Positions 4,386-47,929 of a stretch of 64,000 nt of DNA are shown piece after piece. The translations under genes and the position numbers were made by a program. The notes below the pieces were generated by a model, which was given only the letters and a program-made list of their open reading frames with translations, did no database searches and had not been told where the DNA came from. Each line of letters begins with the position of its first letter. Within the stretch, counting starts at the first letter, position 1. The DNA lies in the NCBI RefSeq assembly GCF_003428645.1, contig NZ_QVQH01000017.1, positions 1 through 64,000 of the forward strand. Direction: 5' to 3'. Origin of the DNA: Geodermatophilus marinus. GTDB lineage: Bacteria; Actinomycetota; Actinomycetes; Mycobacteriales; Geodermatophilaceae.

Positions 4386-5339
4386 GTGCCCACCTCCCGC
4401 CGCGTCGTGATCGCCCTCGGCGGCAACGCGATGACCGGACCCGACGGCTCGGCGACCCCGGCGGCCCAGCAGCGCGCCCTCGCGGTGGCCGCCACCCACG
4501 TCGCCGCGGTGGTCGCCACCGGGGCCGACGTCGTCCTCACCCACGGCAACGGGCCCCAGGTGGGGAACCTGCTGGTGAAGAACGAGCTGGCCGCCCACGA
4601 GGTCCCGCCGGTGCCCCTGGACTGGTGCGTCGCCCAGACGCAGGCCACCATCGGGTTCACGCTGGCCGACGAGCTCGACGCCGCCCTCGCCGCCCGCGGC
4701 CTGCCGCAGCGCACCGCCGGCCTCGTGACCCGCACCCTCGTGGACCCGGACGACCCGCACTTCGCCGAGCCGTCGAAGCCGGTCGGCCGCCACCTGCCCC
4801 GCGAGCGGGCCGAGCTGTTCATCGCGCACGGCCAGACCTGGGAGGACCGGGGCGAGCGGGGCTGGCGCCGGGTGGTCGCCTCGCCGGTGCCGCGCTCGGT
4901 GGTCGACGTCCCGGCCATCGCCGCCCTGGCCGCGGCCGGCTTCGTCGTCGTGTGCGCCGGCGGCGGCGGCGTGCCGGTCGTCCCGGACGGGCCCGGCGGC
5001 GCGCTGCGCGGGGTGGAGGCGGTCATCGACAAGGACCTCACCGCGGCGCTGCTGGCCCGCGAGCTCGGCGCCGACACCCTCGTCATCGCCACCGACGTCC
5101 CGCACGTGATGGTCGGCTTCGGCACCCCCGCGGCCCGGCCGCTGGGCCGGGTGACCACCGCGGAGCTGCGCGCGCACGCCGCGGCCGGCGAGTTCGCGCG
5201 CGGCTCGATGGGCCCGAAGGTCGAGGCCGCCCTGGGGTTCGTGGAGGGTGGCGGCGGCCGCGCCGTCATCACCTCGCTGCAGCACATCGCCGACGCCGTC
5301 ACCGAGGACGACGCCGGCACCGTCCTGACCGCCAACTGA
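4386..5339 (+). CDS. arcC: Carbamate kinase
   Basis: Interconverts carbamoyl phosphate plus ADP with carbamate plus ATP. In catabolic pathways it harvests ATP and releases CO2 and ammonia. The 317-residue protein is full length and shows the amino-acid-kinase signatures VVIALGGNAM at the N-terminus, LTHGNGPQVGN, VVCAGGGGVPVV and VIDKDLTAALLA, with FARGSMGPKVEAA near the C-terminus. No arginine deiminase or catabolic ornithine carbamoyltransferase gene is in the window. The likely carbamoyl-phosphate source is therefore the FdrA/DUF1116 pair at 9794-12711, which shares an operator motif. GTG at 4386 is set by the -10 box 6 nt upstream. A ring-opening amidohydrolase follows on the same strand. 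Confidence 0.93.
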   Translation: MPTSRRVVIALGGNAMTGPDGSATPAAQQRALAVAATHVAAVVATGADVVLTHGNGPQVGNLLVKNELAAHEVPPVPLDWCVAQTQATIGFTLADELDAALAARGLPQRTAGLVTRTLVDPDDPHFAEPSKPVGRHLPRERAELFIAHGQTWEDRGERGWRRVVASPVPRSVVDVPAIAALAAAGFVVVCAGGGGVPVVPDGPGGALRGVEAVIDKDLTAALLARELGADTLVIATDVPHVMVGFGTPAARPLGRVTTAELRAHAAAGEFARGSMGPKVEAALGFVEGGGGRAVITSLQHIADAVTEDDAGTVLTAN

Positions 5340-5345
5340 AGAGAA

Positions 5346-5399
5346 GGCCCCCCTGCCCCCACCGCTCGCACGCTCGCGGCGGGGCCCGGCAGGAGGGCC
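5346..5399 (+). repeat. Intercistronic hairpin element, copy 1
   Basis: Arms 5346-5357 and 5388-5399 pair with one mismatch (GGCCCCCCTGCC with GGCAGGAGGGCC), and inner CCCC/GGGG arms extend the stem. The same layout recurs at 41481-41533 after hyuB. Here it lies between carbamate kinase and the amidohydrolase. It could attenuate read-through or stabilise the upstream mRNA. Confidence 0.6.
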
Positions 5400-5426
5400 G
5401 ACCCCGGAACGAAGGAGTAGTGTCCC

Positions 5427-6530
5427 GTGCCCGCACCGATCGAGGTCCGCAAGATCCCGCTGCACTCCGTCAGCGACGCCTCCGAGCTCGCGAAGCTCAT
5501 CGACGACGGCGTCCTCGAGGCCGACCGGGTCATCGCCGTCATCGGCAAGACCGAGGGCAACGGCGGCGTCAACGACTACACCCGGATCATCGCCGACCGC
5601 GCCTTCCGCGAGGTGCTCGTGGCGAGGGGGACGCGCTCGGCCGAGGAGGTCAAGGGCGTGCCGATCGTCTGGTCCGGCGGCACGGACGGCGTCATCAGCC
5701 CGCACGCGACGGTCTTCGCCACCCTGCCCGAGGACGCGGTCGAGAAGACCGACGAGCCGCGCCTGACCGTCGGCTTCGCGATGAGCGAGCAGATCCTGCC
5801 CGAGGACATCGGCCGGGTCGCCATGATCGAGAAGGTCGCCGCCGGGGTGAAGCAGGCGATGGCCGAGGCCGGCATCGACGACCCCGCCGACGTCCACTAC
5901 GTGCAGACCAAGACCCCGCTGCTGACCATCGACACCATCCGCGACGCCAAGTCCCGCGGGAAGACGGTGTGGACCGAGCACACCCACGAGTCGATGGACC
6001 TCTCCAACGCCACCACCGCGCTCGGCATCGCCGTCGCGCTCGGCGAGATCGACATGCCGGGGGACGAGGACGTCATGCACGACCTCTCGCTGTTCTCCTC
6101 GGTGGCCTCCTGCTCCTCGGGGGTGGAGCTCGACCAGGCGCAGATCGTCGTGGTCGGCAACGCCCGCGGGCACGGCGGCTCCTACCGGATCGGCCACTCG
6201 GTGATGCAGGACGCCCTCGACCAGGACGGCATCTGGGCGGCCATCCGCGACGCCGGCCTGGAGCTGCCCGAACGGCCGCACCACAGCGACCTCGGGGGCC
6301 GGCTGGTCAACGTCTTCCTCAAGTGCGAGGCCGACCCGTCCGGGGCGGTGCGCGGCCGGCGCAACGCGATGCTCGACGACTCCGACGTCCACTGGCACCG
6401 CCAGATCAAGGCCTGCGTCGGCGGCGTGACCGCCTCGGTCACCGGCGACCCGGCGGTCTTCGTCTCCGTCGCCGCCGTGCACCAGGGCCCCTCCGGCGGC
6501 GGCCCGGTCGCCGCCATCGTGCAGGCCTGA
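5427..6530 (+). CDS. Ring-opening amidohydrolase (barbiturase/cyanuric acid hydrolase family)
   Basis: This family (AtzD/TrzD/barbiturase) hydrolyses one amide of a cyclic ureide: cyanuric acid to carboxybiuret, or barbiturate to ureidomalonate. The 367-residue length is typical. Three repeated subdomains each carry the expected Lys or Ser signature: GKTEGN with [11 protein letters not shown], then VQTKTPLLT with [10 protein letters not shown], then [10 protein letters not shown] with the C-terminal [16 protein letters not shown] at 5427 follows GAAGGAG. It shares the promoter of carbamate kinase. Barbiturase fits the nearby RutG-like permease and molybdenum hydroxylase better than cyanurate hydrolase, but sequence alone does not separate them. 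Confidence 0.88.
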
Positions 6531-6560
6531 TCCACCGGTCCTCCCGCCGCGGTCGGGGGG

Positions 6561-6617
6561 TCGTCGCCGGCCGGCGACGACGCCCTGACCGCCGGGCGCG
6601 CCGGTCCCACCGGCGCG
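6561..6617 (+). terminator. Two hairpins after the ring-opening amidohydrolase
   Basis: 6561-6580 is a perfect 20-bp palindrome (TCGTCGCCGGCCGGCGACGA). 6597-6617 is a 9-bp stem (CGCGCCGGT/ACCGGCGCG) with a CCC loop. They lie 30-90 bp after the stop codon with no U-tract, as is usual for actinobacterial terminators. They probably end the carbamate kinase-amidohydrolase transcript. Confidence 0.55.
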
Positions 6618-6709
6618 CGGGCCCGGTGACGGCGATCCGCGCCGGCCGTCCTCTAGGTTGATCGCCCGACGGTCCCGGCGGCGGGGCCGGCCGGACGAGG
6701 AGCCCGACG

Positions 6710-7810
6710 GTGATCAGGTCGAGGCGCTGGGCGCACGCACTGCCCCTGGTGGTGCTCGTCCTGTTCGCGGGCGCCGACCTGCTCGCCGGGCCCGACCGGG
6801 TGCTGCTCAGCCTGGTCGTCATCACGCCGGTCGTGGCCGCCACCAGCCTGGGCCGGCGGGCGACCCTGGCCTACGCCGTCCTCGCACTGGTGACCGCGGC
6901 GCTGCTCGGCGTCTACGACGGGCAGTACGACCGGCGCGACATCGACGTCCAGGTGGTCCGGCTCTTCGCCGTGGCCCTCGGGGGCGCGCTCGCGGTCGCG
7001 GCGAGCACGCTGCGGCTGCGCCGCGAGGAGGACGTCGCCCGGCTCAGCGCCGAGGCCGCCCGGACGACCGCGGTCGTCCAGCTGGCCGAGGACCTGCAGC
7101 GGGACCTGCTGGGCCCGCCGCCGCAGGTCGAGCCGTGGGCGTCGGCGGTGCGCTACCTGCCGGCCAGCCGGCACGCGCAGGTCGGCGGGGACTGGTACGA
7201 CGCCTTCCCCGACCCCGAGGGCCGGACCGTGCTGGTCATCGGGGACGTCGCCGGCCACGGGCCCTCCGCGGCGGCGACGATGGCCCAGGCCCGGGGGATG
7301 CTCCGGGCCGTCGCCCAGTCCGCCGACGGGTCCCCCGCCTCGCTGCTGTCGGCGCTGGACCGGGCGTTCGCCGTCGTCGGCGTGCCGACGCTGATCACCT
7401 GCGTCGTCGCCACGGTGGACCTGCGCCCGCACCCGGGGGACGACGGCCCCACGGCCCGGCTCCGCTGGTCCAACGCCGGGCACCCGCCCCCCGTGCTGCT
7501 GCGGGCCGACGGCCGGGCGGAGCTGCTCGAGCGGGTACCCGACCTGCTGCTCGGGCTGGCCGCGGGCGCCGCCCGCCACGACCACGCGCAGGACCTCTGC
7601 CCCGGCGACACCGTGCTGTTCTTCACCGACGGCCTCGTCGAGCGCCGCGGCGCGCCGATCGACGCGGGCCTGGCCTGGCTGACCGGCACGCTCGAGGGGC
7701 GCGCCTCCCGCTCGCTCGACGAGCTGTGCGACGGGCTGCTCGAGGCGATCGGCGGGCGGGTCGACGACGACGTGGCCCTGCTCGCCGTGCGGGTGCCCGA
7801 CGGCCGCTGA
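6710..7810 (+). CDS. Membrane-anchored PP2C-type (SpoIIE) serine phosphatase
   Basis: A 366-residue protein with four predicted membrane segments (about 10-27, 31-49, 52-72, 83-105), a short helical linker, and a SpoIIE/RsbU-type PP2C domain from about 120 to 362. Metal-binding acidic motifs are visible: GGDWYDAF, VIGDVAGHGPSAA, FFTDGLVERRG and DDDVALLAVR. Such enzymes dephosphorylate STAS-domain anti-anti-sigma factors in partner-switching stress pathways. No sensory GAF or PAS domain is present, so the membrane part may be the input. GTG at 6710 follows ACGAGGAGC. Its substrate is not in the immediate neighbourhood. Confidence 0.85.
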   Translation: MIRSRRWAHALPLVVLVLFAGADLLAGPDRVLLSLVVITPVVAATSLGRRATLAYAVLALVTAALLGVYDGQYDRRDIDVQVVRLFAVALGGALAVAASTLRLRREEDVARLSAEAARTTAVVQLAEDLQRDLLGPPPQVEPWASAVRYLPASRHAQVGGDWYDAFPDPEGRTVLVIGDVAGHGPSAAATMAQARGMLRAVAQSADGSPASLLSALDRAFAVVGVPTLITCVVATVDLRPHPGDDGPTARLRWSNAGHPPPVLLRADGRAELLERVPDLLLGLAAGAARHDHAQDLCPGDTVLFFTDGLVERRGAPIDAGLAWLTGTLEGRASRSLDELCDGLLEAIGGRVDDDVALLAVRVPDGR

Positions 7811-7819
7811 CCGCCCGGG

Positions 7820-8086
7820 CTACCGCTCGTCCGGCGCCCGGCCCGCGTGGTCGACCAGGTCGGCCGCGCTGCCCGAGCGGCCGTCCGCGCGGGCGCAGGA
7901 GGCGCAGCAGTAGAACGTGCCGTCGGCCTCCACGCCGTGCCCCACCACCCTCACCCCGCAGTTCTCGCACACCGGCGCAAGCGCGTGGATGGCGCACTCG
8001 AAGCTGTCGAAGGTGTGCACCGCGCCGGCGGCGTGCACCTCGAAGCTGAGCCGGTAGTCGTTGCCGCAGACCTCGCAGCGGGCCAT
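7820..8086 (-). CDS. Prokaryotic metallothionein-like small zinc protein
   Basis: An 88-residue Cys-rich protein. The cysteines fall in pairs: CEVCGN at the N-terminus, FECAIHALAPVCENCG in the middle and YCCASCA near residue 66. This spacing, with HTFDSFECAIHALAP, matches the small actinobacterial proteins annotated as prokaryotic metallothionein. They are thought to bind Zn or Cu, though the function is poorly tested. ATG at 8086 follows GGAGGGATC. A much longer in-frame extension upstream is arginine/proline-rich shadow sequence and was rejected. It is convergent with the phosphatase gene (9-bp gap). Confidence 0.8.
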   Translation of the reverse strand: MARCEVCGNDYRLSFEVHAAGAVHTFDSFECAIHALAPVCENCGVRVVGHGVEADGTFYCCASCARADGRSGSAADLVDHAGRAPDER

Positions 8087-8187
8087 GGCGATCCCTCCGT
8101 CGGCGTGCACCCTCGCCCGCCGCTCTACCCGGGCCGGGGGCGCGGTAACGGCCCCGGACGCCGGGGCGGGGGGCCGGGCCCGGCGCG

Positions 8188-8757
8188 TCAGCCGGGGGCG
8201 ACCGACACCAGGGCGAAGCCGCGGCCGACCAGGTCGAGGAACCCGCCGGGGTCGTCGTCGGGACGCCAGGTGGCGAAGGCCGCCCCGAGGACGCCGGTGG
8301 CCGCGGCGGCCAGCAGCGCGGCCGCGAGCGGGTCGTCGGGCCGCTGGCGGTGCACCCACGCGGTGAGCGCCGTCCCGACGTGCCCGTAGGCGGCCTGCTG
8401 GTAGGCGGCCAGCTCGGGGTCCTCGGCCAGCCGGCGCCGGAGCGCGAGGGTCGCGGTGTGGGCCGTGAGGTACTCGCGGCAGACCGCGGCGAGGGCGGCC
8501 CAGGGGTCGCCGGCCCCGTCCGCCGCCGCGAGGAGGTCGGCCAGCCGCCGCGCGTCGTCCGGATCGGGGTCGAAGAGCGCCGCGGCCTTGGTCGGGAAGT
8601 GGTTGAAGAACGTCCGCCGGGAGACCCCGGCAGCTGCGGCGATGTCGTCGACGGTCACCGCGGCGAAGCCGCGCCGCCCGACGAGGTCCAGGGCCGCGGC
8701 CTGCAGCGCGCGCCGGCTCCCCCGGCGGCGCTCCTCCCGCACGGACCGCTCCCCCAC
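8188..8757 (-). CDS. TetR-family transcriptional regulator
   Basis: The N-terminal helix-turn-helix spans about residues 12-55 (ALDLVGRRGFAAVTVDDIAAAAGVSRRTFFNHFPTKAAAL). A ligand-binding all-helical domain follows, in about 189 residues total. It diverges from the mycofactocin-type SDR. A perfect TGCACTCAGTGCA palindrome lies in the shared control region, so it probably represses both genes. GTG at 8757 was chosen because the -10 at 8789-8794 is too close for an in-frame GTG at 8784 to be translated. The ligand is likely a substrate or product of the SDR (inference). Confidence 0.87.
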   Translation of the reverse strand: MGERSVREERRRGSRRALQAAALDLVGRRGFAAVTVDDIAAAAGVSRRTFFNHFPTKAAALFDPDPDDARRLADLLAAADGAGDPWAALAAVCREYLTAHTATLALRRRLAEDPELAAYQQAAYGHVGTALTAWVHRQRPDDPLAAALLAAAATGVLGAAFATWRPDDDPGGFLDLVGRGFALVSVAPG

Positions 8758-8788
8758 GCGACCCAGGGTAGCGGCGGGCGGCACCCGG

Positions 8789-8816
8789 ACCCTAGGGTCC
8801 GCTGCACTCAGTGCAA
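8789..8816. promoter_or_regulatory. Divergent promoters and TetR operator
   Basis: ACCCTAGGGT (8789-8798) gives an overlapping -10 for both strands: TAGGGT on the plus strand at 8793-8798 and on the minus strand at 8789-8794. On the minus strand TTGCAC (8811-8816) is a -35 at 16 bp. TGCACTCAGTGCA (8803-8815) is a perfect 13-bp palindrome. It covers the plus-strand start site and the minus-strand spacer, as expected for one repressor silencing both genes. Confidence 0.65.
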
Positions 8817-8831
8817 CGAGAGGAGACCGGC

Positions 8832-9644
8832 ATGACCACCCGCCGACTCGAGGGCAAGGTCGCCCTCATCACCGGTGCCGCCCGCGGCCAGGGCCGCGCG
8901 CACGCCGTCCGGCTCGCCGCCGAGGGGGCCGACGTCATCGCCCTCGACGTGAACGCCGACGCCCGCACGACGGCCTACGCGGGACCGACCGCCGAGGACC
9001 TCGCCGAGACCGTCCGGCTGGTCGAGGCCCAGGACCGGCGGATCGTCGCCCGCGAGGCCGACGTCCGGGACTTCGCGGCCCTGTCCGCGGTGGTCGCCGA
9101 CGGGGTGGCCGAGCTCGGCCGGCTCGACGTCGTGGTCGCCAACGCGGGCATCTGCTCGGCGGCCCTGTCGTGGGAGATCTCGCTCGAGCAGTGGCAGGAG
9201 ACGATCGACACGAACCTGACCGGGGTCTTCCACACCGCGAAGGCGACCGTGCCGGTCCTGCTGGAGCAGGGCACCGGCGGGTCGATCATCATCACCAGCT
9301 CGGTGGCGGGGCTGCGCGGGCTGCCCTTCCTCGGGCACTACGCGGCCAGCAAGCACGGCGTCGTCGGCCTGGCCCGCACCATGGCCAACGAGCTGGGGCA
9401 GCACGGCATCCGGGTCAACACGCTGCACCCGCACGGGGTGGCCACCGGCATGACCGTCCCCGACATGCAGCCGCTGATGGATCGCTACGCCCCGACGCTG
9501 GGGCCGATCTTCATGCAGACGCTGCCCGACCAGGTGTCCCAGCCGGAGGACATGGCGGCCGCGGTCGCCTGGCTGGCCTCCGACGACGCCCGGCACGTCA
9601 CCGGCGTCGCGCTGCCCGTGGACCTCGGCACCCTCGCCCGCTGA
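8832..9644 (+). CDS. Mycofactocin-coupled SDR-family oxidoreductase
   Basis: A 270-residue NAD-dependent short-chain dehydrogenase. It has the Rossmann motif TGAARGQGRAHA (14-25), NAG (104-106), S156/S157, and the catalytic pair Y170 and K174 (YAASK). The insert PTAEDLAETVRLVEAQDRRIVAREADVRD after the second strand marks the mycofactocin-coupled group, which holds its NAD cofactor tightly and passes electrons to the peptide redox carrier mycofactocin. ATG at 8832 with GAGAGGAG upstream is preferred over GTG at 8811, which lies in the operator. Substrate is likely an alcohol (inference). No mycofactocin biosynthesis gene is in the window. Confidence 0.85.
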   Translation: MTTRRLEGKVALITGAARGQGRAHAVRLAAEGADVIALDVNADARTTAYAGPTAEDLAETVRLVEAQDRRIVAREADVRDFAALSAVVADGVAELGRLDVVVANAGICSAALSWEISLEQWQETIDTNLTGVFHTAKATVPVLLEQGTGGSIIITSSVAGLRGLPFLGHYAASKHGVVGLARTMANELGQHGIRVNTLHPHGVATGMTVPDMQPLMDRYAPTLGPIFMQTLPDQVSQPEDMAAAVAWLASDDARHVTGVALPVDLGTLAR

Positions 9645-9683
9645 CCCGCCCGCGCCGGCCGGGGGCGGGGTCGCGCCGGTTGG

Positions 9684-9748
9684 CGGTCGAGTGCGACGAA
9701 CTCGTGGTCCTCGGGAGCCGATCACCCCGGGTTCGTCGCACTCGACCG
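9684..9748. repeat. Large inverted repeat between convergent genes
   Basis: Arms 9684-9701 and 9731-9748 are perfectly complementary over 18 bp (core GTCGAGTGCGACGAAC). Three further pairs, one a wobble, lie inside, leaving a loop of about 23 nt. It sits between the convergent SDR and DUF1116 genes, so it may be a bidirectional terminator. The long arms and large loop also fit a dispersed intergenic palindrome. Confidence 0.6.
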
Positions 9749-9793
9749 GCAGCGGCCTCCGGTGGCGCCTCGGCTGGCCCCGCGCGCGGCGGG

Positions 9794-11209
9794 TCAGGCC
9801 GCGGCGGCGCCCCGCGCCTCCTCGGCCAGCGCGGTGAGCGCGGTCTCGAAGCACTCCCGCGGCGGCTGCACGAGCCCGGCGCCCACCTGCCCGGTGCCGG
9901 CCACCCGCCCGGCCATGCCGGTGTTGATCTGCGGCAGCCAGCCGGTGCGGGCCACGGAGAGGACGTCGATGCCGGTGGGCGCGCCGCGGAAGCCGAGGAT
10001 CGGCACCTGCATCGCCGGGTTCTCGGTCAGCGTCAGCTGGTACATCCGCTCGGTGGTGGCCAGCGCGTCGGGCACCGAGCCGCCGACGAACCGGACGATG
10101 GCCGGCGCCGCGGCCATGCAGAACCCGCCCACCCCGTAGGTCTCCATGATCGCCGAGTCGCCGATGTCGGGGTTGGCGTCCTCGGGCCCGAAGTCGCCGA
10201 GGAACAGGCCGACCGGGGTCTGCGCCGGGCCGGTGAACCAGCGGTCGCCGGTGCCGGCGGTGCGGATGCCGAACTCGGTGCCGTTGCGGGACATCACGGT
10301 GACCACCGTCGACCCGGGGATCGAGCCGACGGCGTCGAGCGCGAGCTTCGCCGTCGGCATCCCCAGGTTGAGGAAGAAGTGCTCGTTGCCGCCGATGAAG
10401 CGCAGCACCGCGGCGATGTCGGACGACGGCGCGTCGACGGCCACGACCGCCGGGGACAGCTCGCGCAGGGTCATCAGCGAGCCGGCCCGGTTGCGGTTGT
10501 GCCCCTCGTCGCCCATCTGCAGCATCTGCGCGAGCACGGCCTTGACGTCCAGCGGCTCGGCCATCGACCGCACCGCGGCGGCCAGCACGGGGCCGAGCAC
10601 GTCGCGCATCCACCGCAGCCGGGTGAGCACCTCGTCGCCGTAGGCACCCATCCGGAGCACCTTGCCCAGGCCCTCGTTGAGGTTGCAGAAGGCCTGCCCG
10701 CCGTGCACGGGGTCGGCCAGGCACCACATCCACATCGACGGGCTGGTCACCCCGGCCATGGGGCCGACCGTGCGGTGGTGGTGGCACGGGTCGAGGGCGA
10801 TCTCCCCCGCCGCGAGCAGCCGCTCGGCCTCCTCGACCGTGCCGGCCCAGCCCTCGAACAGGCAGGCGCCGACGAGCGCCCCGCGCATCGGGCCGGAGGC
10901 CGTCTCCCAGGTCAGCGGCGGCCCGGAGTGCAGCAGGGTGCGGTCGGGCAGGTCGAGCACCTCGCGGGCGGGGCGGACGTCGACCAGCTGCGAGCCGGCG
11001 GCCACCAGGCGCTCGACCGCGGTGCGGTTGGCGACGGCCCGGCGCGGGTCGAGGGCGAGCGCGGCCAGGTCGGCGGGGTCGCCGAGGCCCGGCGGGCGCC
11101 AGTCGACGTCGTGCACCTCGGCGCCCTGGGCGCGCAGGGCGCCGGAGAAGACGTCGACGCCGGCCGCGACCACGGTGGGGGCGGCGGAGAGCAGGTCCGA
11201 CAGGCTCAC
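9794..11209 (-). CDS. DUF1116 protein (YlbE/AllG-like carbamoyltransferase component)
   Basis: A 471-residue DUF1116 protein. Recognisable blocks are GGQAFCNLNEGLGKVLRMGAYG, QMGDEGHNRNRAGS, FFLNLGMPTAKLA, MSRNGTEFGIR and MEAYGVGGF-like METYGVGGF. In E. coli the relative YlbE (AllG) works with FdrA (AllF) and YlbF (AllH) as oxamate carbamoyltransferase, which forms carbamoyl phosphate from oxalurate. Its start overlaps the fdrA-like stop by 4 nt (ATGA), so the two are translationally coupled. Substrate here is unknown. The context with carbamate kinase and a ring-opening amidohydrolase favours a ureido acid such as oxalurate or ureidomalonate (inference). Confidence 0.85.
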   Translation of the reverse strand: MSLSDLLSAAPTVVAAGVDVFSGALRAQGAEVHDVDWRPPGLGDPADLAALALDPRRAVANRTAVERLVAAGSQLVDVRPAREVLDLPDRTLLHSGPPLTWETASGPMRGALVGACLFEGWAGTVEEAERLLAAGEIALDPCHHHRTVGPMAGVTSPSMWMWCLADPVHGGQAFCNLNEGLGKVLRMGAYGDEVLTRLRWMRDVLGPVLAAAVRSMAEPLDVKAVLAQMLQMGDEGHNRNRAGSLMTLRELSPAVVAVDAPSSDIAAVLRFIGGNEHFFLNLGMPTAKLALDAVGSIPGSTVVTVMSRNGTEFGIRTAGTGDRWFTGPAQTPVGLFLGDFGPEDANPDIGDSAIMETYGVGGFCMAAAPAIVRFVGGSVPDALATTERMYQLTLTENPAMQVPILGFRGAPTGIDVLSVARTGWLPQINTGMAGRVAGTGQVGAGLVQPPRECFETALTALAEEARGAAAA

Positions 11210-12711
11210 GAGGCGGCTCCCAGGAGCTCGAGGGCGTGCCGCGTGGCCGCGGCGTTGGAGGCGAAGACGGCGGCGCCCGCGGCGGCCAGGGCGTCGGCCT
11301 GCCGGGTCCAGCCCTGCGGGTCGGCCTCGGTGCCGACCAGCGCGACGACCACCGGCAGCGGGTGCGCCGAGGTCTCCCGGGCGGCCCGCAGGGCGGGCAC
11401 GAGGGCGGCCGCGGGGTCGGCGTCGGCCCCGTACCCGAGGACGACGTCGAGCAGCACGACCGCCGGCTCCTCCCCCGCGGCGACCCCGGCCAGGGCCTCC
11501 AGCCGCAGGGTCGGGTCGATCATCGGGTGGGCGCGGCCCACCGTCAGGGCGTCGTCCCCGAAGTCGACCACCACGTGCCCGGGGGCGGACAGGTCCGTTC
11601 CCAGGTCCAGCTCGGGCCGCAGCGGGGTGTTGGAGCGGATGTCCCCGAGCGCGGGGGCGGCGACCAGCATCGCCTCGTCGGCGAGGGTGCCGCCGGAGTA
11701 CAGCCCCTTGAGGGCGGCACCGGGCGCGGCCCGCGTGCCGTCGCCGGGGCGGGACGGCCAGGCGGGGACGGCGACGCCCAGGTCGCCCAGCAGGGCCTCC
11801 ACCGCGGCGGTGAGGTCGGGGGTCTCCGGCGACAGCGCGGCCGAGCGCACCGGCACCGACAGCCGGCCGGCCGCCTCGGCGACCGCCGCGGCCACGGACG
11901 GCGCCGGGGGCTTGGAGACCAGCAGCACCCGCTCGGTGGCCGGGTCGGCGTCCAGCGCCGCCAGCGCGTCGAGCGTGGCCAGGCCCCCGACGGCCTCGGA
12001 CAGGTCGCGGCCCCCGACGCCGAGCACGTGGGAGACCCCGACGCCGGCCATGTCGAGCAGGCAGGAGACCTGCTGCGCGCCGGTGCCCGACGCGGCGACC
12101 AGGCCCACCGGCCCCCGGCGGACCACGTTGGCGAAGCCGAGGGCGACGCCGGAGACCACCGCCGTCCCGCAGTCGGGGCCCATGACCAGCACCCCGGCGG
12201 CGTGCGCGGCGCGCTTGAGGGCCACCTCCTGCTCGACCGGGACCCCGTCGGAGAAGACCAGCACGCTGCGGCCGGCGGCGATGGCGTCGGCCGCCTCCAG
12301 CGCCGCGAACTGCCCCGGGACGCTCACGATCGCCAGCACCGGGCCGCCGCCGGCCAGCGCGTCCAGGCCGGCGTGCGTGGTCCGGGCCGGGACGGCGTCG
12401 GCGCTCGTGCCGGCGCGCTCGCGGGCGGCCAGGGCGGCGTCGACGGCGGCGACCGCGCCGGCCAGGACCTCCTCGTCCACGGCCTCGACGGCGACGAGCA
12501 GCTGGTCGGGCGAGGCGTCGCCGTCGGGGGCGAGCCCCATGGCGCCGGCCAGGTCCAGGTTGAGCGGGGTGGCCATGGCGACGAGGACGGCGGAGACGCC
12601 CTCGCGGGCACCGATGTCGCGGCTGACCTGCATCAGCTTCACCGAGTCGGCGTAGACGCCGCTGCGGAGGGTGACGTGCCGGGCCGCGCTGCCGGGAGGT
12701 GCGGAGCTCAC
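11206..12711 (-). CDS. fdrA: FdrA-family protein (CoA-ligase-like carbamoyltransferase component)
   Basis: A 501-residue FdrA relative with the succinyl-CoA-synthetase-like fold. Blocks shared with E. coli FdrA are YADSVKLM near the N-terminus, VMGPDCGTAVVSGVALGFANVV, ASGTGAQQ, GVGGRDLS, LYSGGTL, DFGDDALTVGRAHPMIDPTLR and LLDVVLGYGADADPAA. The GPDCGT block lies where CoA ligases bind phosphate. Together with DUF1116 it probably carries out phosphorolytic transfer of a carbamoyl group, feeding carbamate kinase. It is divergent from the permease, and two copies of the 18-bp palindrome lie 22-70 bp upstream of its GTG/ATG region. Confidence 0.85.
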   Translation of the reverse strand: MSSAPPGSAARHVTLRSGVYADSVKLMQVSRDIGAREGVSAVLVAMATPLNLDLAGAMGLAPDGDASPDQLLVAVEAVDEEVLAGAVAAVDAALAARERAGTSADAVPARTTHAGLDALAGGGPVLAIVSVPGQFAALEAADAIAAGRSVLVFSDGVPVEQEVALKRAAHAAGVLVMGPDCGTAVVSGVALGFANVVRRGPVGLVAASGTGAQQVSCLLDMAGVGVSHVLGVGGRDLSEAVGGLATLDALAALDADPATERVLLVSKPPAPSVAAAVAEAAGRLSVPVRSAALSPETPDLTAAVEALLGDLGVAVPAWPSRPGDGTRAAPGAALKGLYSGGTLADEAMLVAAPALGDIRSNTPLRPELDLGTDLSAPGHVVVDFGDDALTVGRAHPMIDPTLRLEALAGVAAGEEPAVVLLDVVLGYGADADPAAALVPALRAARETSAHPLPVVVALVGTEADPQGWTRQADALAAAGAAVFASNAAATRHALELLGAAS

Positions 12712-12732
12712 CGGGCGACCGTACCGGGAAAC

Positions 12733-12780
12733 TGCCTCAGCGGTGAGGTATCAGGTCGGTGAAGATTTAGCGGTGAGGTA
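12733..12780. promoter_or_regulatory. Tandem palindromic operators between fdrA and the permease
   Basis: Two 18-bp sites, TGCCTCAGCGGTGAGGTA (12733-12750) and AGATTTAGCGGTGAGGTA (12763-12780), are spaced 30 bp centre to centre. They share AGCGGTGAGGTA exactly. The first is a near-perfect CCTCA-N4-TGAGG palindrome. They sit in the divergent promoter region, so one regulator could control both directions. Confidence 0.6.
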
Positions 12781-12874
12781 CTTCCGGAGGCTCCGGGACG
12801 CGTGACAGATTGGCGCCTCTCCGGCCGCGGCGGGCCCGTCCGGCCGGGTCGGCGCAGGACACGAGGAGGCCTGG

Positions 12875-14350
12875 ATGGCGTTCGGCTGGAAGCTCTACGG
12901 GGACGGCAAGACCCCGCCGCTGGGCGAGGCCGTCGCGCCCGACGAGCGCCTGTCGTGGCCCCGCACGGCAGGCATCGGGGCGCAGCACGTGGTCGCCATG
13001 TTCGGTGCGACCTTCGTCTTCCCGCTCATCATGGGGCTCGACCCGAACCTCGCGATCATGATGAGCGGCGTCGCGACGATCATCTTCCTGCTGATCGTCA
13101 AGAACCGGGTGCCCAGCTACCTGGGCACCAGCGCCGCCTTCGTGGGCGGGGTCGCGGCGATCCGCGCCACCGGGGGTGACTCCTCCGACGTCGTGGGCGC
13201 GCTGCTGGTCGCCGGCGTCGTGCTCGCGCTGGTCGGCCTGGTCATCCACTTCGCCGGCCTCGGTGTGATCAACAAGGTGCTGCCGCCGGCCGTCACCGGC
13301 GCGGTGGTCATGCTGATCGGCTTCAACCTGGCCCCGGTCGCCGCGGGCATCTACTGGCCGCAGGACCAGTGGGTCGCGCTGGCCACGATGACCTTCGTCA
13401 TCGTGGCCTCGCTGGCGCTGCGCGGCTTCCTCGCCCGCATCTCCATCCTTCTCGGCCTGGTCTTCGGCTACCTGATCTCGACGCTGTGGGACACCCTGGG
13501 CGGCCCGATCACCTCCCCGGACGGGACCGGCGAGGTCTCCACCCGGGACCGGATCGACTTCAGCGCGGTCGGCGCGGCCGACTGGTTCGGCCTCCCCGAG
13601 TTCACCTTCCCGACGTTCTCGCTGAACTACAGCCTGCTGGTCATCCCCGCCGTGATCGCCCTGGTCGCCGAGAACGCCGGGCACGTCAAGGCGGTCGCCG
13701 AGATGACCAAGCGCGACCTGGACCCGGTGATGGGCCGGGCGATCATGGGTGACGGCATCGCCACCGTGGTCGCCACCTCGGTCGGCGGCTCGCCCACGAC
13801 CACCTACGCCGAGAACATCGGCGTCATGGCCGCCACGCGGGTGTACTCGACGGCGGCGTACTACGTGGCCGCGCTCGTGGCGATCGCGCTGGGCCTGATC
13901 CCCAAGTTCGGCGCGCTGATCAGCATCGTCCCGGGCGGGGTGCTCGGCGGGATCACCGTCGTCCTCTACGGCATGATCGGCCTGCTCGGCGCGAAGATCT
14001 GGAAGGAGAACCGGGTCGACTTCGCCAACCCGATCAACCTCGTGCCGCTGGCCGCGGGGATCATCATCGGCATCGGCAACGTGACCCTGACCTTCTCCGA
14101 CGAGTTCTCGCTGACCGGCATCGCGCTGGGCTCCATCGTGGCGGTCGCCGCCTGGCACCTGGCCCGCGTGCTGGCGCCCGCGGACATGAAGGCCGCGCTC
14201 ACCCGCGAGGGCGCCCACCCGGCTGCGGGCACCACCTTCGGCCACGTGCACGGCGACGAGGTCAGCCCCGACCCGTCGTCGGTCGACCAGGTCGGCCGCC
14301 CCGGCGTCACCGGTTCCCGGACCCCTGGGAAGGACATGTTCCACAAGTGA
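12875..14350 (+). CDS. NCS2 nucleobase:cation symporter, RutG/UraA-like
   Basis: A 491-residue inner-membrane permease with about 12-14 hydrophobic segments. The substrate-site motifs are VAENAGHVKAVAEMTKRDLDP (Glu near 266) and TTYAENIGVMAATRVYST (Glu near 312). These match the pyrimidine-type RutG/UraA branch of NCS2 rather than the purine-type UapA/XanQ branch, so uracil, thymine or a related ring is the likely cargo. The C-terminal tail after about 450 is hydrophilic. The stop overlaps the next start (GTGA), coupling the transporter to the molybdenum hydroxylase. The ATG at 12875 follows CGAGGAGG. Confidence 0.88.
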   Translation: MAFGWKLYGDGKTPPLGEAVAPDERLSWPRTAGIGAQHVVAMFGATFVFPLIMGLDPNLAIMMSGVATIIFLLIVKNRVPSYLGTSAAFVGGVAAIRATGGDSSDVVGALLVAGVVLALVGLVIHFAGLGVINKVLPPAVTGAVVMLIGFNLAPVAAGIYWPQDQWVALATMTFVIVASLALRGFLARISILLGLVFGYLISTLWDTLGGPITSPDGTGEVSTRDRIDFSAVGAADWFGLPEFTFPTFSLNYSLLVIPAVIALVAENAGHVKAVAEMTKRDLDPVMGRAIMGDGIATVVATSVGGSPTTTYAENIGVMAATRVYSTAAYYVAALVAIALGLIPKFGALISIVPGGVLGGITVVLYGMIGLLGAKIWKENRVDFANPINLVPLAAGIIIGIGNVTLTFSDEFSLTGIALGSIVAVAAWHLARVLAPADMKAALTREGAHPAAGTTFGHVHGDEVSPDPSSVDQVGRPGVTGSRTPGKDMFHK

Positions 14351-15219
14351 AACCCGCCCCCTTCCGCTACGCCGACCCCCGGTCCCTCGACGAGGCCCTG
14401 GCCGTGCTCTCCGCCGAGGAGGGCGCCAAGGTGCTCGCCGGCGGCCAGTCGCTGCTCCCGCTGCTGTCCATGCGGCTGGCCGCGCCGGCCGTGCTCGTGG
14501 ACATCAACCGGGTGCCCGGCCTGGACGCCGTCGAGGCGACCGGGGACGGCGTGCGGGTGGGGGCGCTCGTCCGGCACGACGCGCTGCTCCGCGACGCCGC
14601 CGCCGCCCGGGTCCAGCCGCTGCTGGCCCGGGCGACGGCGAACGTCGCCCACCCCGCGATCCGCAACCGCGGGACGACCGTCGGCTCCATCGCCCACGCC
14701 GACCCCTCCGGCGAGATGACCTCCGTCCTCGCCCTCACCGACGGCTCGGTGACCGTCGCGACGCCGGAGGGCACCGGCACGGTCGGCTGGCGCGACCTGT
14801 TCGTCGGGCCGCTCGAGACGTCGGTGACCGGCCCCGCCGTGGTCACCTCCGCCTTCTTCCCCGCCCTCCCGGAGCGGTCGGGGACCGCCTTCGCCGAGGT
14901 CGCCCGGCGCAAGGGCGACTACGCCGTCTGCGGCGCCGGCGTCGTCGTCACCCTCGACGCGGACCGCCGCGTGAGCGCCGCCCGCGCCGCCTACGTCTCC
15001 GTGGGCCTGGTGCCCGAGGTGCACGACCTCACCGACGCCGTCGCCGGGGCCCCCGCGGAGGAGGCCGACTGGGCCGCCGCCGGGGCACTGGCCCGCTCCC
15101 TCGTCGAACCCGACGGCGACATCCACGCCAGCGCCGACTACCGCCGGCTGCTGGTCGGCGTCCTGACCGAACGCACGCTCGCCTCCGCCGCCGCGGAGGC
15201 ACTGGGGAAGGTGGCATGA
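14347..15219 (+). CDS. Molybdenum hydroxylase FAD-binding subunit (CoxM/XdhB-like)
   Basis: A 290-residue medium subunit that carries FAD and passes electrons out of a xanthine dehydrogenase/CO dehydrogenase-type hydroxylase. FAD-binding blocks are KVLAGGQSLLPLL (about residues 28-40) and HPAIRNRGTTVGSIAHADPSGEM (about 103-125). The C-terminal CO-dehydrogenase flavoprotein domain follows, including FAEVARRKGDYAV. GTG at 14347 overlaps the permease stop, and the stop overlaps the next ATG. The order M-S-L is that of actinobacterial cox-like operons. Confidence 0.92.
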   Translation: MKPAPFRYADPRSLDEALAVLSAEEGAKVLAGGQSLLPLLSMRLAAPAVLVDINRVPGLDAVEATGDGVRVGALVRHDALLRDAAAARVQPLLARATANVAHPAIRNRGTTVGSIAHADPSGEMTSVLALTDGSVTVATPEGTGTVGWRDLFVGPLETSVTGPAVVTSAFFPALPERSGTAFAEVARRKGDYAVCGAGVVVTLDADRRVSAARAAYVSVGLVPEVHDLTDAVAGAPAEEADWAAAGALARSLVEPDGDIHASADYRRLLVGVLTERTLASAAAEALGKVA

Positions 15220-15734
15220 CCACGTCCGTCGACGCCGAACGCACCATCACCGTCACCGTGAACGGGGTCCCGCGGCAGGCCACCGTCCCGGTCCGCCGGT
15301 TGCTCTCCGACGCGCTGCGCCACGACCTCGGGCTGACCGGCACCCACGTGGGCTGCGAGCACGGGGTCTGCGGGGCCTGCACCGTGCTGGTCGACGGGGC
15401 GCCCGTGCGCTCCTGCCTGCTGCTGGCCGTGCAGGTCGACGGCGCCTCGGTCACCACCGTGGAGGGGCTGGCCCGCGAGGACCAGCAGGGCGGGCAGGTG
15501 CTGCACCCGGTCCAGGAGGCCTTCCGCGAGTGCCACGCCCTGCAGTGCGGGTTCTGCACCCCGGGCTTCCTGGTGACCATCGCCGCCGGCCTGGAGGCGC
15601 GCGACGCCGACGGGCCGATCACCGACGAGGAGGTCGAGGAGATCGTCGGCGGCAACCTCTGCCGCTGCACCGGCTACGCCAACATCAAGAAGGCCGTGCA
15701 CCACGCCGACGCGGCCATGCGGGACGCCCGGTGA
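15216..15734 (+). CDS. Molybdenum hydroxylase [2Fe-2S] subunit (CoxS/XdhC-like)
   Basis: A 172-residue small subunit carrying two [2Fe-2S] clusters. The plant-ferredoxin-type cluster uses C47, C52, C55 and C67 (GCEHGVCGACTVLVDG). The second, helical-domain cluster uses C111, C114, C149 and C151 (CGFCTPG and CRCTGY). All eight ligands are present, so the subunit looks functional. ATG at 15216 overlaps the preceding stop by 4 nt. A 97-bp gap with no obvious gene separates it from the large subunit. Confidence 0.94.
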   Translation: MTTSVDAERTITVTVNGVPRQATVPVRRLLSDALRHDLGLTGTHVGCEHGVCGACTVLVDGAPVRSCLLLAVQVDGASVTTVEGLAREDQQGGQVLHPVQEAFRECHALQCGFCTPGFLVTIAAGLEARDADGPITDEEVEEIVGGNLCRCTGYANIKKAVHHADAAMRDAR

Positions 15735-15831
15735 CCGCCCCCGCAGGCCGCGGACAAGGAAGCCGTGCCCATGTCGCGGGCTCCGATACGAGGGGAAGGC
15801 ACCCCATGCCTCTGCCTGCGGGGGGACGACG

Positions 15832-18249
15832 GTGACCACCAAGCTCTTCGGTGAGCCGGTCCGCCGCCGGGAGGACGCCCGGCTGATCACCGGCCGGGGG
15901 CGGTACCTGGACGACATCGGCGCCGGCGCGCTGGCCGCGGCCTTCGTGCGCAGCCCGCACGCGCACGCCCGCATCACCGGCATCGACGTCGACGCCGCCC
16001 TGGACGTCGAGGGCCTGGTCGCGATCTACACCTACGAGGACCTCACCGGCCCGCTGGCCGAGCCGCTGCCGGTGCTCATCCCGCACCCGCAGCTGCACGC
16101 GCCGCGCACCGGCTACCCGCTGGCCAACGGGGAGGTCAACCACGTCGGCGAGCCGGTGGTCATGGTGGTGGCCACCGACCGGTACGTCGCCGAGGACGCC
16201 TGCGACCGCATCGTCGTCTCCTACGAGGAGCTGCCCGCGGTCGTGGGGGTGGACGCCGCCCGCGCCGCGGAGCACGCCGTCCACGAGGAGATCCCCGGCA
16301 ACGTCGCCGCCCGGCACCACCAGGAGACCGGGGACGTCGAGCCGGCGCTGGCGGCCAGCCCGCACACCCTCTCCTTCACCCAGTACATCGAGCGCAGCGC
16401 CTGCATGCCGCTGGAGGGCAAGGGCGTGCACGCCCGCTGGGACCCCGACGACTCGTCGCTGCGGGTGCACACCAGCACCCAGGCGTCCACCTCGGTGCGC
16501 GCGGCGATCGCGGCGAAGCTGGAGCTCTCCCTCGACGCGGTCGAGGTCGTCGCCCCCGACGTCGGCGGCGGTTTCGGCGTGAAGATCGTGCACCCGTGGC
16601 CGGAGGAGCTGCTGGTGCCGATGGCCGCGATCGCGCTGGGCCGCGAGGTCAAGTGGGCCGAGGACCGCCGCGAGCACTTCATCTCCTCGGCGCACGAGCG
16701 CCAGCAGCGCCAGGAGATCACCGTCGGGTACGACGACGAGGGCCGGGTCACCGCGCTCGACGTGCACATCTGGCACGACAACGGGGCCTACACGCCCTAC
16801 GGGATCATCGTGCCGATCGTGACCGCCACCCAGCTGGTCGGCCCGTACGACCTGCCCGTCTACCGGGTGGTCGTGGAGAGCGTCTACACCAACACGGTCA
16901 TCGTGACCCCCTACCGCGGCGCCGGCCGGCCGCAGGGCTGCTACGCCATGGAGCGGACGATGGACCGCATCGCCGACGCCCTCGGCCTGGACCGCGCCGT
17001 CGTCCGGGAGCGGAACCTCATCCGGCCCGACCAGTTCCCCTACGACCACCGCCTGACGTTCCAGGACGGCCGGCCGGTCATCTACGACTCCGGGGACTAC
17101 CCCGGCCTGCTGACCAAGCTCAAGGACCTCGTCGGCTGGGACGCGGTGGAGGAGCGCCGCCGCGACGCCGAGCGGCGCGGGAAGCTGCTCGGCGCGGGCA
17201 TGGCCCTCTACGTCGAGGGCACCGGCCCCGGCCCCTACGAGGGCGGGCACGTCCAGGTGCTCGGCAGCGGCAAGGTGCTGGTCTCCACCGGCCTGACCAG
17301 CCAGGGGCAGGGCCACGAGACGGTGTTCGCGCAGATCGTCGCCTCCGAGCTCGGCGTCCCGATCGAGGACGTCGAGGTCACCACCGGCGACACCCGCCGC
17401 TTCGGCTACGCGGTGGGCACCTTCGCCTCCCGCGCGGCGGTCATGAGCGGCAACGCGGTGGCCCTGGCCGCCCGCGGGGTGCGCGCGAAGGCGCTGCGGA
17501 TCGCCGCCGACGCCCTCGAGGTCGACCCGCAGGACCTGGAGATCGACGAGGGCGTGGTGCAGGTCAAGGGGACGCCGGGCGCGTCGATCCCCCTGCGCAC
17601 GGTCGCCGTCCTCTCCAACCCGCTGCGGTACGCCTTCGACGAGGCCGCCCGCCAGGCCACCCAGTTCGCCGGCCCGGCCGACGACTCCAGGCCGCCCGTG
17701 GCCGAGGGGGACGCCCCGGGGCTGGAGCACCGCGACTACTACTCCCCCGTCCGCTCCACCTTCGCCTCCGGCGCGCACGCCGCGGTGGTGGAGATCGACC
17801 CGGCGACCTGGGAGATCGACGTCGTCACCTACGCGGTCGTGCACGACTGCGGCAACGTGGTGAACCCGATGATCGTCGAGGGGCAGGTGCACGGCGGCGT
17901 CGCGCAGGGCGTCGGCGGGGCGCTCTACGAGCGGATGGCCTACGACGCCGACGGGCAGCTGCAGAACGCCTCGTTCATGGACTTCCTCATGCCCTACGCC
18001 AGCGAGGTCCCCGACGTGGTGATCGACCACCAGGAGACGCCCTCGCCGCTCAACCCGCTGGGCATCAAGGGGGCCGGCGAGGCCGGCGTCATCCCCGGGA
18101 CGGCGGCGATCGCCTCGGCGCTCGAGGACGCCACCGGCCGGCGCATCGCGGCGATGCCGCTGTCCCCCACCCAGCTCTACGACCTCGTGCGCGACGAGAC
18201 GACGGAGCGGACCGCGCAGGCGGCCCGCAGGACAGGAGTGCCCGCGTGA
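15832..18249 (+). CDS. Molybdenum hydroxylase catalytic subunit (xanthine dehydrogenase/aldehyde oxidase family)
   Basis: An 805-residue molybdopterin-cytosine-dinucleotide-type large subunit that hydroxylates N-heterocycles or aldehydes with water. It starts with an aldehyde-oxidase/xanthine-dehydrogenase a/b hammerhead domain. The loop PYRGAGRPQG (about 360-369) lacks the AYXCSFR cysteine of true form I CO dehydrogenase. The catalytic glutamate is in KGAGEAG near residue 749. CO oxidation is therefore unlikely. Xanthine, uracil or another azaheterocycle is plausible, and coupling to a RutG-like permease favours a pyrimidine (inference). The GTG start at 15832 fits MTTKLFGEPVRRRED, the usual N-terminus. 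Confidence 0.9.
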   Translation: MTTKLFGEPVRRREDARLITGRGRYLDDIGAGALAAAFVRSPHAHARITGIDVDAALDVEGLVAIYTYEDLTGPLAEPLPVLIPHPQLHAPRTGYPLANGEVNHVGEPVVMVVATDRYVAEDACDRIVVSYEELPAVVGVDAARAAEHAVHEEIPGNVAARHHQETGDVEPALAASPHTLSFTQYIERSACMPLEGKGVHARWDPDDSSLRVHTSTQASTSVRAAIAAKLELSLDAVEVVAPDVGGGFGVKIVHPWPEELLVPMAAIALGREVKWAEDRREHFISSAHERQQRQEITVGYDDEGRVTALDVHIWHDNGAYTPYGIIVPIVTATQLVGPYDLPVYRVVVESVYTNTVIVTPYRGAGRPQGCYAMERTMDRIADALGLDRAVVRERNLIRPDQFPYDHRLTFQDGRPVIYDSGDYPGLLTKLKDLVGWDAVEERRRDAERRGKLLGAGMALYVEGTGPGPYEGGHVQVLGSGKVLVSTGLTSQGQGHETVFAQIVASELGVPIEDVEVTTGDTRRFGYAVGTFASRAAVMSGNAVALAARGVRAKALRIAADALEVDPQDLEIDEGVVQVKGTPGASIPLRTVAVLSNPLRYAFDEAARQATQFAGPADDSRPPVAEGDAPGLEHRDYYSPVRSTFASGAHAAVVEIDPATWEIDVVTYAVVHDCGNVVNPMIVEGQVHGGVAQGVGGALYERMAYDADGQLQNASFMDFLMPYASEVPDVVIDHQETPSPLNPLGIKGAGEAGVIPGTAAIASALEDATGRRIAAMPLSPTQLYDLVRDETTERTAQAARRTGVPA

Positions 18250-18923
18250 ACCTCGACGGCTCAGCCGTGCTGCACGCCGACCCCGAGCGGGTCTGGTCGG
18301 TCATCACCGACCCGGCGGTGCTCGCCCGCACGATCCCCGGCTGCGAGTCGCTGGAGCAGACCGGCGAGGACAGCTACCGGATGAACGTCTCGGTCGGCGT
18401 CGGCGCCGTGCGCGGCACCTACGCCGGCGAGGTGCGGCTGTCGGACAAGGACCACCCGAAGTCCTACGTCATGCACGCCTCCGGCGCCGGCGCCCCGGGC
18501 AACGCCCGGGCCACGGTCACCATCGGGCTGGAGCCGGCCGACGGCGGGACGACGACGCTGACCTACTCCGCCGATGCCGTCGTGGGCGGCCCGGTGGCCG
18601 GCGTGGGCCAGCGGATGATGACCGGCGTCGCCAAGCGCATGGCCGGCCAGTTCTTCTCCGCGATCGACGACGAGCTGACCGGGCGGGCCGCCCCGGTCGC
18701 CGCCCCGGCCGAGCCGCGCCCGTCGGCCGCCGCGGTCAGCGAGACGGGGGTGGCGGCGCCCGAGGCGGCCGCCGCCGCGCCGCAGGTCTTCGCCGGGCGC
18801 GCGGCCGCGGCCCCGGCGGCGGTCGGCGGCGAGGTGCGCACCCTCGCCCTCGGGGCGGTGGGCGGCGCCGCGCTCACCCTGATCGGCGTGCTGGTCGGCT
18901 ACCGCCTCGGCCGCCGTCCCTGA
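18246..18923 (+). CDS. CoxG-like SRPBCC protein with C-terminal membrane anchor
   Basis: A 225-residue protein. Residues 1-145 are a CoxG/SRPBCC lipid-binding-like fold (GSAVLHADPERVWSVITDPAVLARTIPGC, then VSVGVGAVRGTYAGEV and ADAVVGGPVAGVGQRMM). An Ala/Pro-rich linker follows, and a single C-terminal membrane segment (about 200-220) ends in RLGRRP. CoxG relatives tether molybdenum hydroxylases to the membrane and its quinones. GTG at 18246 overlaps the large-subunit stop (GTGA), making it the last gene of a five-gene operon starting with the permease. Confidence 0.88.
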   Translation: MNLDGSAVLHADPERVWSVITDPAVLARTIPGCESLEQTGEDSYRMNVSVGVGAVRGTYAGEVRLSDKDHPKSYVMHASGAGAPGNARATVTIGLEPADGGTTTLTYSADAVVGGPVAGVGQRMMTGVAKRMAGQFFSAIDDELTGRAAPVAAPAEPRPSAAAVSETGVAAPEAAAAAPQVFAGRAAAAPAAVGGEVRTLALGAVGGAALTLIGVLVGYRLGRRP

Positions 18924-47907: not shown

Positions 47908-47929
47908 GATACCTCAGCAGTGAGATATC
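47908..47929 (-). promoter_or_regulatory. Palindromic operator of the NmrA-MarR operon
   Basis: TACCTCAGCAGTGAGATA (47910-47927), with GA and TC extending the arms, lies directly before the GTG at 47903. It matches the sites at 4348, 12733, 12763 and 37458. The position blocks transcription or translation start, consistent with autorepression. Confidence 0.62.

Follow-up and report, generated by a model that had tools for sequence, protein, structure and literature searches.

We describe a gene cluster of Geodermatophilus marinus that probably (we put it at about 80%) encodes an oxidative, energy-conserving pathway of uracil catabolism, in which ureidomalonate would be cleaved with phosphate by the transcarbamylase AllFGH and ATP then recovered by carbamate kinase (CK). 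The cluster lies in the stretch analysed here (the window), 64,000 nucleotides that form the start of contig C9 of the 5.2 Mb genome. It joins genes for CK, barbiturase, AllF and AllG with those for a nucleobase permease and a three-subunit molybdenum hydroxylase (Mo-hydroxylase). We observed the identities of these genes, the specificity residues of the barbiturase, the co-occurrence and contiguity of the genes in relatives, and an operator shared by both arms of the cluster.

Enzymes of the proposed pathway

In the proposed pathway, the permease would import uracil, the Mo-hydroxylase would oxidise it to barbiturate, and barbiturase would open the ring to give ureidomalonate. A complex of AllF, AllG and AllH (the last encoded elsewhere in the genome) would then use phosphate to split ureidomalonate into malonamate and carbamoyl phosphate, from which CK would produce ATP, CO2 and ammonia. 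Deamidation of malonamate would give malonate, which two further members of the regulon, a CoA-transferase and a carboxyltransferase-like protein, may take toward acetyl-CoA. Ureidomalonate, the pathway's ureido intermediate, is oxalurate plus one methylene. Since both are N-acylureas, phosphorolysis by AllFGH is plausible by analogy with the E. coli enzyme (PMC11326118). The original prediction, an earlier reading of the same DNA, had proposed this pathway as far as the gain of ATP, and comparative genomics supports it. The substrates of AllFGH and the Mo-hydroxylase are our inference, as are an amidase for malonamate and the steps from malonate onward.

Genes were called from codon-position G+C and family scans; gene finding together with Pfam and NCBIfam scans recovered every gene that the original prediction had named, each where it had been placed. 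CK (4386-5339, forward strand; AllK/ArcC-like), which converts carbamoyl phosphate and ADP to ATP and carbamate, is 43% identical to E. coli AllK over 315 aa. It carries the Pfam AA_kinase domain and scores 297 bits against PRK12352 (above the cut-off of 266) and 332 bits against TIGR00746 (below the cut-off of 358); the amino acid kinase family and carbamate kinase models place it among the catabolic carbamate kinases.

The hydrolase downstream (5427-6530, forward strand) is, judged by sequence, a barbiturase, the enzyme that opens barbiturate to ureidomalonate. It is about 87% identical to the barbiturase of Rhodococcus erythropolis (locus L016), and its best PDB chain is 5HWE, 'Barbiturase' (690 bits, vs 328 bits for the best cyanurate hydrolase). 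Five positions (195, 321, 325, 345 and 346 in AtzD) are reported to separate AtzD from barbiturase (Peat 2013, PMC3758960). In that paper, barbiturases (AtzD/Bar group VI) have Asn, His, Lys, Val and Ser/Ala at these positions, and cyanuric acid hydrolases have Arg, Thr, Arg, Gly and Gly. The window hydrolase has N-H-K-V-A, i.e. the barbiturase set, and the R. erythropolis reference has N-H-K-V-S. In an alignment of 125 rows, with some genomes represented twice, 119 rows share N-H-K-V and end in A (51), S (50) or G (18), the 18 Gly-ending rows differing at one position from the published barbiturase set, and one has I-H-K-V-A. The five distant family rows carry other residue sets, two of them R-T-R-G-G.

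The original prediction had also named cyanurate chemistry as an alternative. In such a pathway, the hydrolase would open cyanuric acid and AllFG would act on carboxybiuret or biuret. NCBIfam does label the protein cyanuric acid amidohydrolase (NF052395, 483 bits vs a cut-off of 360). However, the R-T-R-G-G set is not found in the window hydrolase although this cut-off is passed, and residues, identity and PDB ranking are all of the barbiturase type. Genomes with only a distant member of the hydrolase family lack AllG (0/5 in the phylum sample introduced below), and a nucleobase permease and Mo-hydroxylase would have no evident role with cyanurate. Given the identity and the N-H-K-V-A residues, we set this pathway aside as highly improbable despite the database label.

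AllG (9794-11209) and AllF (11206-12711) are both on the reverse strand, and the end of AllF overlaps the start of AllG by 4 bases. AllG, an oxamate-type carbamoyltransferase subunit (DUF1116; PF06545, 315 bits; PDB 3CLQ homologue), is 49% identical to E. coli AllG over 409 aa. AllF (FdrA; NCBIfam FdrA 392 bits, below the cut-off of 433; PDB 3DMY homologue) is 38% identical to its E. coli counterpart over 492 aa. In the E. coli system, AllF, AllG and AllH together phosphorolyse oxalurate, and all three are needed (PMC11326118). No allH is present at the locus; the third subunit is encoded by a single copy on contig C18 (position 61747), divergent from a PucR regulator gene, which completes the oxamic transcarbamylase set in the genome. 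In other barbiturase genomes AllH adjoins AllF, and several also have PucR next to AllH, so the AllFGH of this genome looks like a complex whose genes became split.

The permease (12875-14350, forward strand; Pfam Xan_ur_permease) is an NCS2 nucleobase permease of the RutG-like type that passes the NCS2 cut-off (TIGR00801, 306 vs 292). Its end overlaps the start of the FAD subunit by 4 bases, consistent with the translational coupling claimed earlier. The Mo-hydroxylase, also on the forward strand, consists of the FAD subunit (14347-15219; FAD_binding_5), a [2Fe-2S] subunit (15216-15734; Fer2 and Fer2_2) and the Mo-binding subunit, a putative uracil dehydrogenase (15832-18249; MoCoBD_1 and MoCoBD_2). 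A CoxG-like accessory protein follows (18246-18923; PF06240, E 1.2e-27), a component beyond those listed originally; the region ends at 18923 because CoxG stops at that base. The Mo subunit is 62% identical to a homologue in the R. erythropolis barbiturase cluster. NCBIfam names it aerobic CO dehydrogenase (NF040766, 1468 bits), and its best PDB match is a quinoline oxidoreductase, so that homology leaves its substrate unfixed. Form I aerobic CO dehydrogenases carry the active-site loop AYXCSFR. This loop does not occur in the window Mo subunit, which has TPYRGAGRP instead. Among 43 Mo subunits, 34 have TPYRGAGRP and four SPYRGAGRP; the remaining five, cut by the end of the stretch, show neither. 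The missing form I loop and the pyrimidine context led us to set aside the CO dehydrogenase reading, and pyrimidine hydroxylases elsewhere may also be filed under that name.

Linkage of barbiturase to AllFGH and carbamate kinase

We searched 396 Actinomycetota genomes for AllG, barbiturase and AllH. AllG was found in 49 and AllH in 37, while the barbiturase family occurred in 27: 22 at 68-100% identity, counted as barbiturase, and five distant members at 41-45%. All 22 barbiturase genomes hold AllG, compared with 27 of the 374 others (Fisher p = 7e-23, descriptive only because the genomes are related). AllH is present in 21 of the 22; the exception (G269) is an assembly of 590 contigs, and the matches in two further genomes (G097 and G299) end at contig ends.

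We traced 38 of 80 barbiturase loci to named genomes, including all five loci without CK upstream of barbiturase. AllG is present in 34 of these 38 genomes, CK in the same 34 (leaving out of the count a match at E 4e-4 in G408) and AllH in 35, so CK and AllG agree in 38/38. The comparison across actinobacteria suggested originally thus came out in favour of the proposed linkage. Both genes are missing from two unrelated lineages, three Rhodococcus genomes and Modestobacter muralis. The AllH of M. muralis, located elsewhere in its genome and without AllG, reads as a relic. The fifth locus without CK upstream belongs to Arachnia (L056), whose genome holds AllG and CK elsewhere. The only CK detected in Arachnia lies on a contig other than that of its barbiturase, next to a second set of AllH, AllF and AllG, which is divergent (L223).

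The Rhodococcus genomes bear on a rival reading, that ureidomalonate follows the known pathway to urea and malonate by hydrolysis, and that AllFG and CK have some other function in the regulon. No AllG, AllH or CK was found in the three Rhodococcus genomes (AllF was not searched), and an amidase lies directly 3' of barbiturase in all three loci (R. erythropolis, L016:11233-12726). This amidase is a candidate for ureidomalonase, the enzyme of the hydrolytic step in the known pathway. Amidases also occur in 11 non-Rhodococcus barbiturase loci, in one of them (L020) directly after barbiturase. However, AllG and CK are missing from the same lineages, a pattern that we read as replacement of one route of ureidomalonate cleavage by another, and the clusters contain no other carbamoyl donor that we could see. 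We therefore regard hydrolysis in G. marinus as improbable. Because Rhodococcus has the CoA-transferase and carboxyltransferase without AllG or CK, these two enzymes are suggested to act on malonate, the product common to both routes.

Gene order in relatives points the same way as co-occurrence to phosphorolysis. In 75 of the 80 loci CK directly precedes barbiturase, with both genes on one strand and 12-155 bases between tblastn matches. In 13 sampled genomes other than the window's, barbiturase and AllG lie no more than 12 kb apart (L191-L193, L195-L204). AllH was found in 12 of these compact clusters by tblastn and in the thirteenth (G353) by Pfam, and CK is present in 11. Two of them (L191 and L192) hold the full set: PucR, barbiturase, permease, CK, AllH, AllF, AllG, three Mo-hydroxylase subunits, CoxG and an amidase. 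Their permease is 29% identical to that of the window, and the amidase is 29-30% identical to the Rhodococcus amidase. A first neighbourhood scan had suggested that Nocardioides-type loci lack AllFG, but this was overturned by whole-genome searches, which found AllG; in the cases examined it is either more distant within the contig or on a different one.

We also placed AllF and AllG in trees (quick IQ-TREE searches, no bootstrap), with rows labelled by hand from their stretches. In each tree a single branch sets the barbiturase-linked sequences apart from all others, with SH-aLRT 98 for AllG (40 rows) and 99 for AllF (38 rows). The three AllD-linked rows, E. coli included, form a separate group in both trees. 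Residues differing between the barbiturase-linked and AllD-linked proteins number 13 in AllG and five in AllF, a comparison that rests on those three AllD-linked rows. The nearest well-placed outsiders are two loci with a RutG-type permease (L232 and L233) and three with Mo-hydroxylase and HydAB, a hydantoinase-like enzyme, in genomes lacking barbiturase (L234, L236 and L237); some other outside rows sit on long branches, where placement is unsure.

These data also speak to oxalurate chemistry, another alternative raised originally. On this view AllFG and CK would, as in E. coli, handle oxalurate that derives from purines, and their proximity to barbiturase would be incidental. The only characterised AllFGH we know of acts on oxalurate (PMC11326118), and the AllG here shares almost half its residues with that enzyme's. 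However, E. coli AllD, the oxalurate-making ureidoglycolate dehydrogenase, has no match in the G. marinus genome at E 0.001. In the phylum sample, two of the 49 genomes with AllG have an AllD of at least 50% identity, and neither is among the 22 with barbiturase; eight more genomes (five with barbiturase) hold only relatives at 26-36%. AllD-linked AllF and AllG also fall outside the barbiturase-linked groups, and oxalurate would leave both the 22/22 association and the joint absence with CK unexplained. We accordingly disfavour it as unlikely.

A shared operator and a scattered regulon

In the whole genome the 14-base motif YTAGCGGTGARGTA is matched without mismatch at only two places, one preceding CK (4348-4361) and the other separating AllF from the permease (12767-12780), which bears out the shared operator noted originally. 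The site before CK and barbiturase extends over 4348-4365, where the motif has 0 mismatches and the full 18-base palindrome described below has five. The region between the AllF-AllG and permease-Mo-hydroxylase arms (12733-12780) holds two copies, at 12737-12750 and 12767-12780. Genome-wide, 36 sites lie within two mismatches of YTAGCGGTGARGTA, vs 14 for a reversed-pattern control. In a hand-picked Geodermatophilaceae set (28 named loci, two further stretches and the window, with loci of other gene order from metagenome-assembled genomes excluded), an operator with at most two mismatches precedes CK in 28/29 cases and AllF in 23/25. As controls, 250-base pieces within barbiturase never came closer than four mismatches (29/29), and 11 of 500 random window pieces, true operators included, reached three or fewer.

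Sequences of the relatives suggest that YTAGCGGTGARGTA is one form of a palindrome, TACCTCAGCGCTGAGGTA. Sites for it led to genes that, like allH, the original prediction did not cover. One site (37458-37475, two mismatches) precedes HydA (37483-39591, forward strand), an ATP-dependent hydantoinase/caprolactamase-like subunit A with Pfam Hydantoinase_A domains (caprolactamase alpha 532 bits, below the cut-off of 1000). Its partner subunit HydB (Pfam Hydantoinase_B) occupies an open frame on the same strand that overlaps HydA (39489-41477, start approximate) and is 74% identical to a HydB upstream of CK-barbiturase in Janibacter. Another site (47910-47927, three mismatches) precedes an NmrA-like NAD(P)-binding protein (47076-47903, reverse strand; Pfam NmrA) and a MarR regulator (46561-47079, reverse strand; Pfam MarR_2). 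This MarR protein, behind its own operator, is probably the likeliest binder of the palindrome. A further site (two to three mismatches) lies on contig C12, before a CoA-transferase/carboxyltransferase pair that adjoins a dicarboxylate carrier of the MatC type. In 20 mononucleotide-shuffled versions of the window, no palindrome site with four or fewer mismatches arose.

These gene types recur in the barbiturase loci of other actinobacteria (CoA-transferase in 34 of the 80, HydB in 29 and carboxyltransferase in 13), and NmrA-like tblastn matches (35-49% identity) occur in 15 other stretches of barbiturase genomes; the palindrome thus ties the scattered genes of this genome to a cluster that stays together in relatives. 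We did not count the window site at 36715 (four mismatches to the palindrome) as an operator, and we took a near-exact site at C2:112501, flanked by a TrwC relaxase gene and a short unnamed frame, as chance. Outside Geodermatophilaceae, the palindrome scan gave only sites with four mismatches, likewise taken as chance.

Several observations weigh against ureidomalonate phosphorolysis as the function of this locus. The co-occurrence counts lack phylogenetic independence, and AllF, found with AllG in 26/26 loci, was counted by locus rather than genome by genome. M. muralis (G411, L044) has barbiturase without AllG or CK and with no substitute identified, and L020 has CK as well as an amidase directly after barbiturase. 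Second AllFG copies in two barbiturase genomes (G415, at L223, and G386, at L246), labelled apart in the trees, fall outside the barbiturase-linked clade. No CK was found in the stretches of two compact clusters (L198 and L199), and in L199 barbiturase, AllH, AllF and AllG stand beside a Mo-hydroxylase 29-41% identical to the usual one. The permease scores 382 bits against the RutG model, below its equivalog cut-off of 759. No operator with two or fewer mismatches lies around AllH-PucR of this genome (L132) or at its best candidate for the malonamate amidase (contig C28, L273), which is 56% identical to a Nocardioides-cluster amidase.

HydAB, too, is a member of the regulon that the pathway leaves unexplained. 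In L234, L236 and L237, whose genomes have no barbiturase, Mo-hydroxylase, HydA, HydB, AllF and AllG form one cluster, as if HydAB took the place of barbiturase as ring opener. These three genomes make another cyclic ureide possible: the Mo-hydroxylase may form a different barbiturate-like compound (e.g. from thymine), and AllFGH may act on a substituted ureidomalonate or related acylurea. The classification of the Mo subunit with CO dehydrogenases and its quinoline oxidoreductase match would allow this. However, R. erythropolis, the source of the characterised oxidative-pathway barbiturase (PMC3758960), has a homologous Mo-hydroxylase in its barbiturase cluster. We consider another ureide considerably less probable than uracil-derived barbiturate, yet the likeliest of the alternatives; it shares the phosphorolysis step with our proposal, and the two are not mutually exclusive.

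Between the two arms lie a SpoIIE phosphatase (6710-7810, forward strand), a TetR regulator (8188-8784, reverse strand) and a mycofactocin-type short-chain dehydrogenase/reductase (SDR; 8811-9644, forward strand). They are poorly kept in the 80 barbiturase loci (TetR in 5, SpoIIE in 16 and SDR in 17, the latter two often at low identity), and we left them out of the pathway for want of general conservation. In many independent Geodermatophilaceae assemblies, among them those of the window and of L002, L004, L006 and L011, a contig ends some 5-8 kb from barbiturase, which lies behind RecQ and AlkB. This suggests that a repeat such as an rRNA operon lies just past the contig end in these assemblies.

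Relation to known systems

Among the matches listed in our literature search, which left subscription papers mostly outside its scope, no paper links barbiturase with AllFGH or carbamate kinase, and none describes phosphorolysis of ureidomalonate. A 2025 study of nitrifiers, in which allFGHK was seen to adjoin biuret and triuret genes, interpreted it as serving oxalurate breakdown (PMC12625717). We observed an isochorismatase-family hydrolase, AllF, AllG and CK in tandem (L226:7022-11594) in a genome without AllH; the hydrolase scores 278 bits against the BiuH model (cut-off 370), and the substrate of this system is perhaps of the biuret type. The same AllF, AllG and CK occur in L227.

It is tempting to go further, at a little under even odds, and view AllFGH as a general N-acylurea phosphorylase module, acting on oxalurate with AllD, ureidomalonate with barbiturase, another ureide, made by HydAB, where barbiturase is absent, and a biuret-type compound beside a BiuH-like hydrolase. 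Uracil breakdown would then yield ATP in most barbiturase-bearing Actinomycetota, with the urea-releasing Rhodococcus route as the exception. If the pathway proposed here is true, pyrimidine catabolism would gain an energy-conserving branch, and the transcarbamylase family whose genes a 2024 paper reported (PMC11326118) would gain a new substrate. The pathway would also point to candidate genes for uracil dehydrogenase and the ureidomalonase of Rhodococcus, and two misleading database names that mask it in soil actinobacteria, cyanuric acid hydrolase and CO dehydrogenase, would be corrected.

Among the closest known systems is E. coli AllFGH with AllK, which has the same three subunit families and CK, and whose N-acylurea phosphorolysis is also the reaction proposed here (PMC11326118). 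Unlike in E. coli, the genes here are linked to barbiturase and Mo-hydroxylase rather than AllD, form their own tree group, have allH displaced in this genome, and would act on ureidomalonate. Cyanuric acid hydrolases AtzD/TrzD belong to the same protein family as barbiturase, with R-T-R-G-G rather than N-H-K-V-A residues. Purine-catabolic modules also combine ring opening with carbamoyl transfer and carbamate kinase (PMC4016543), but they come from Rubrobacter, use an ATCase-like carbamoyltransferase and include uricase and allantoinase genes; that paper does not mention barbiturate. In the reductive uric acid pathway, YgeW and carbamate kinase support ATP formation by phosphorolysis of a ureido group, with a hydrolytic variant in another species (PMC12507026). 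The phosphorolytic cleavage toward ATP in place of hydrolysis is alike, although YgeW belongs to another transcarbamylase family (PMC11326118) and serves a reductive, anaerobic pathway with a purine substrate. In the oxidative pyrimidine pathway of R. erythropolis, barbiturate is converted to ureidomalonate and then to urea and malonate (PMC3758960). Its cluster shares with ours the closely similar barbiturase and homologous Mo-hydroxylase, permease, CoA-transferase and carboxyltransferase, but the last step proposed here would be phosphorolysis to carbamoyl phosphate rather than hydrolysis to urea.

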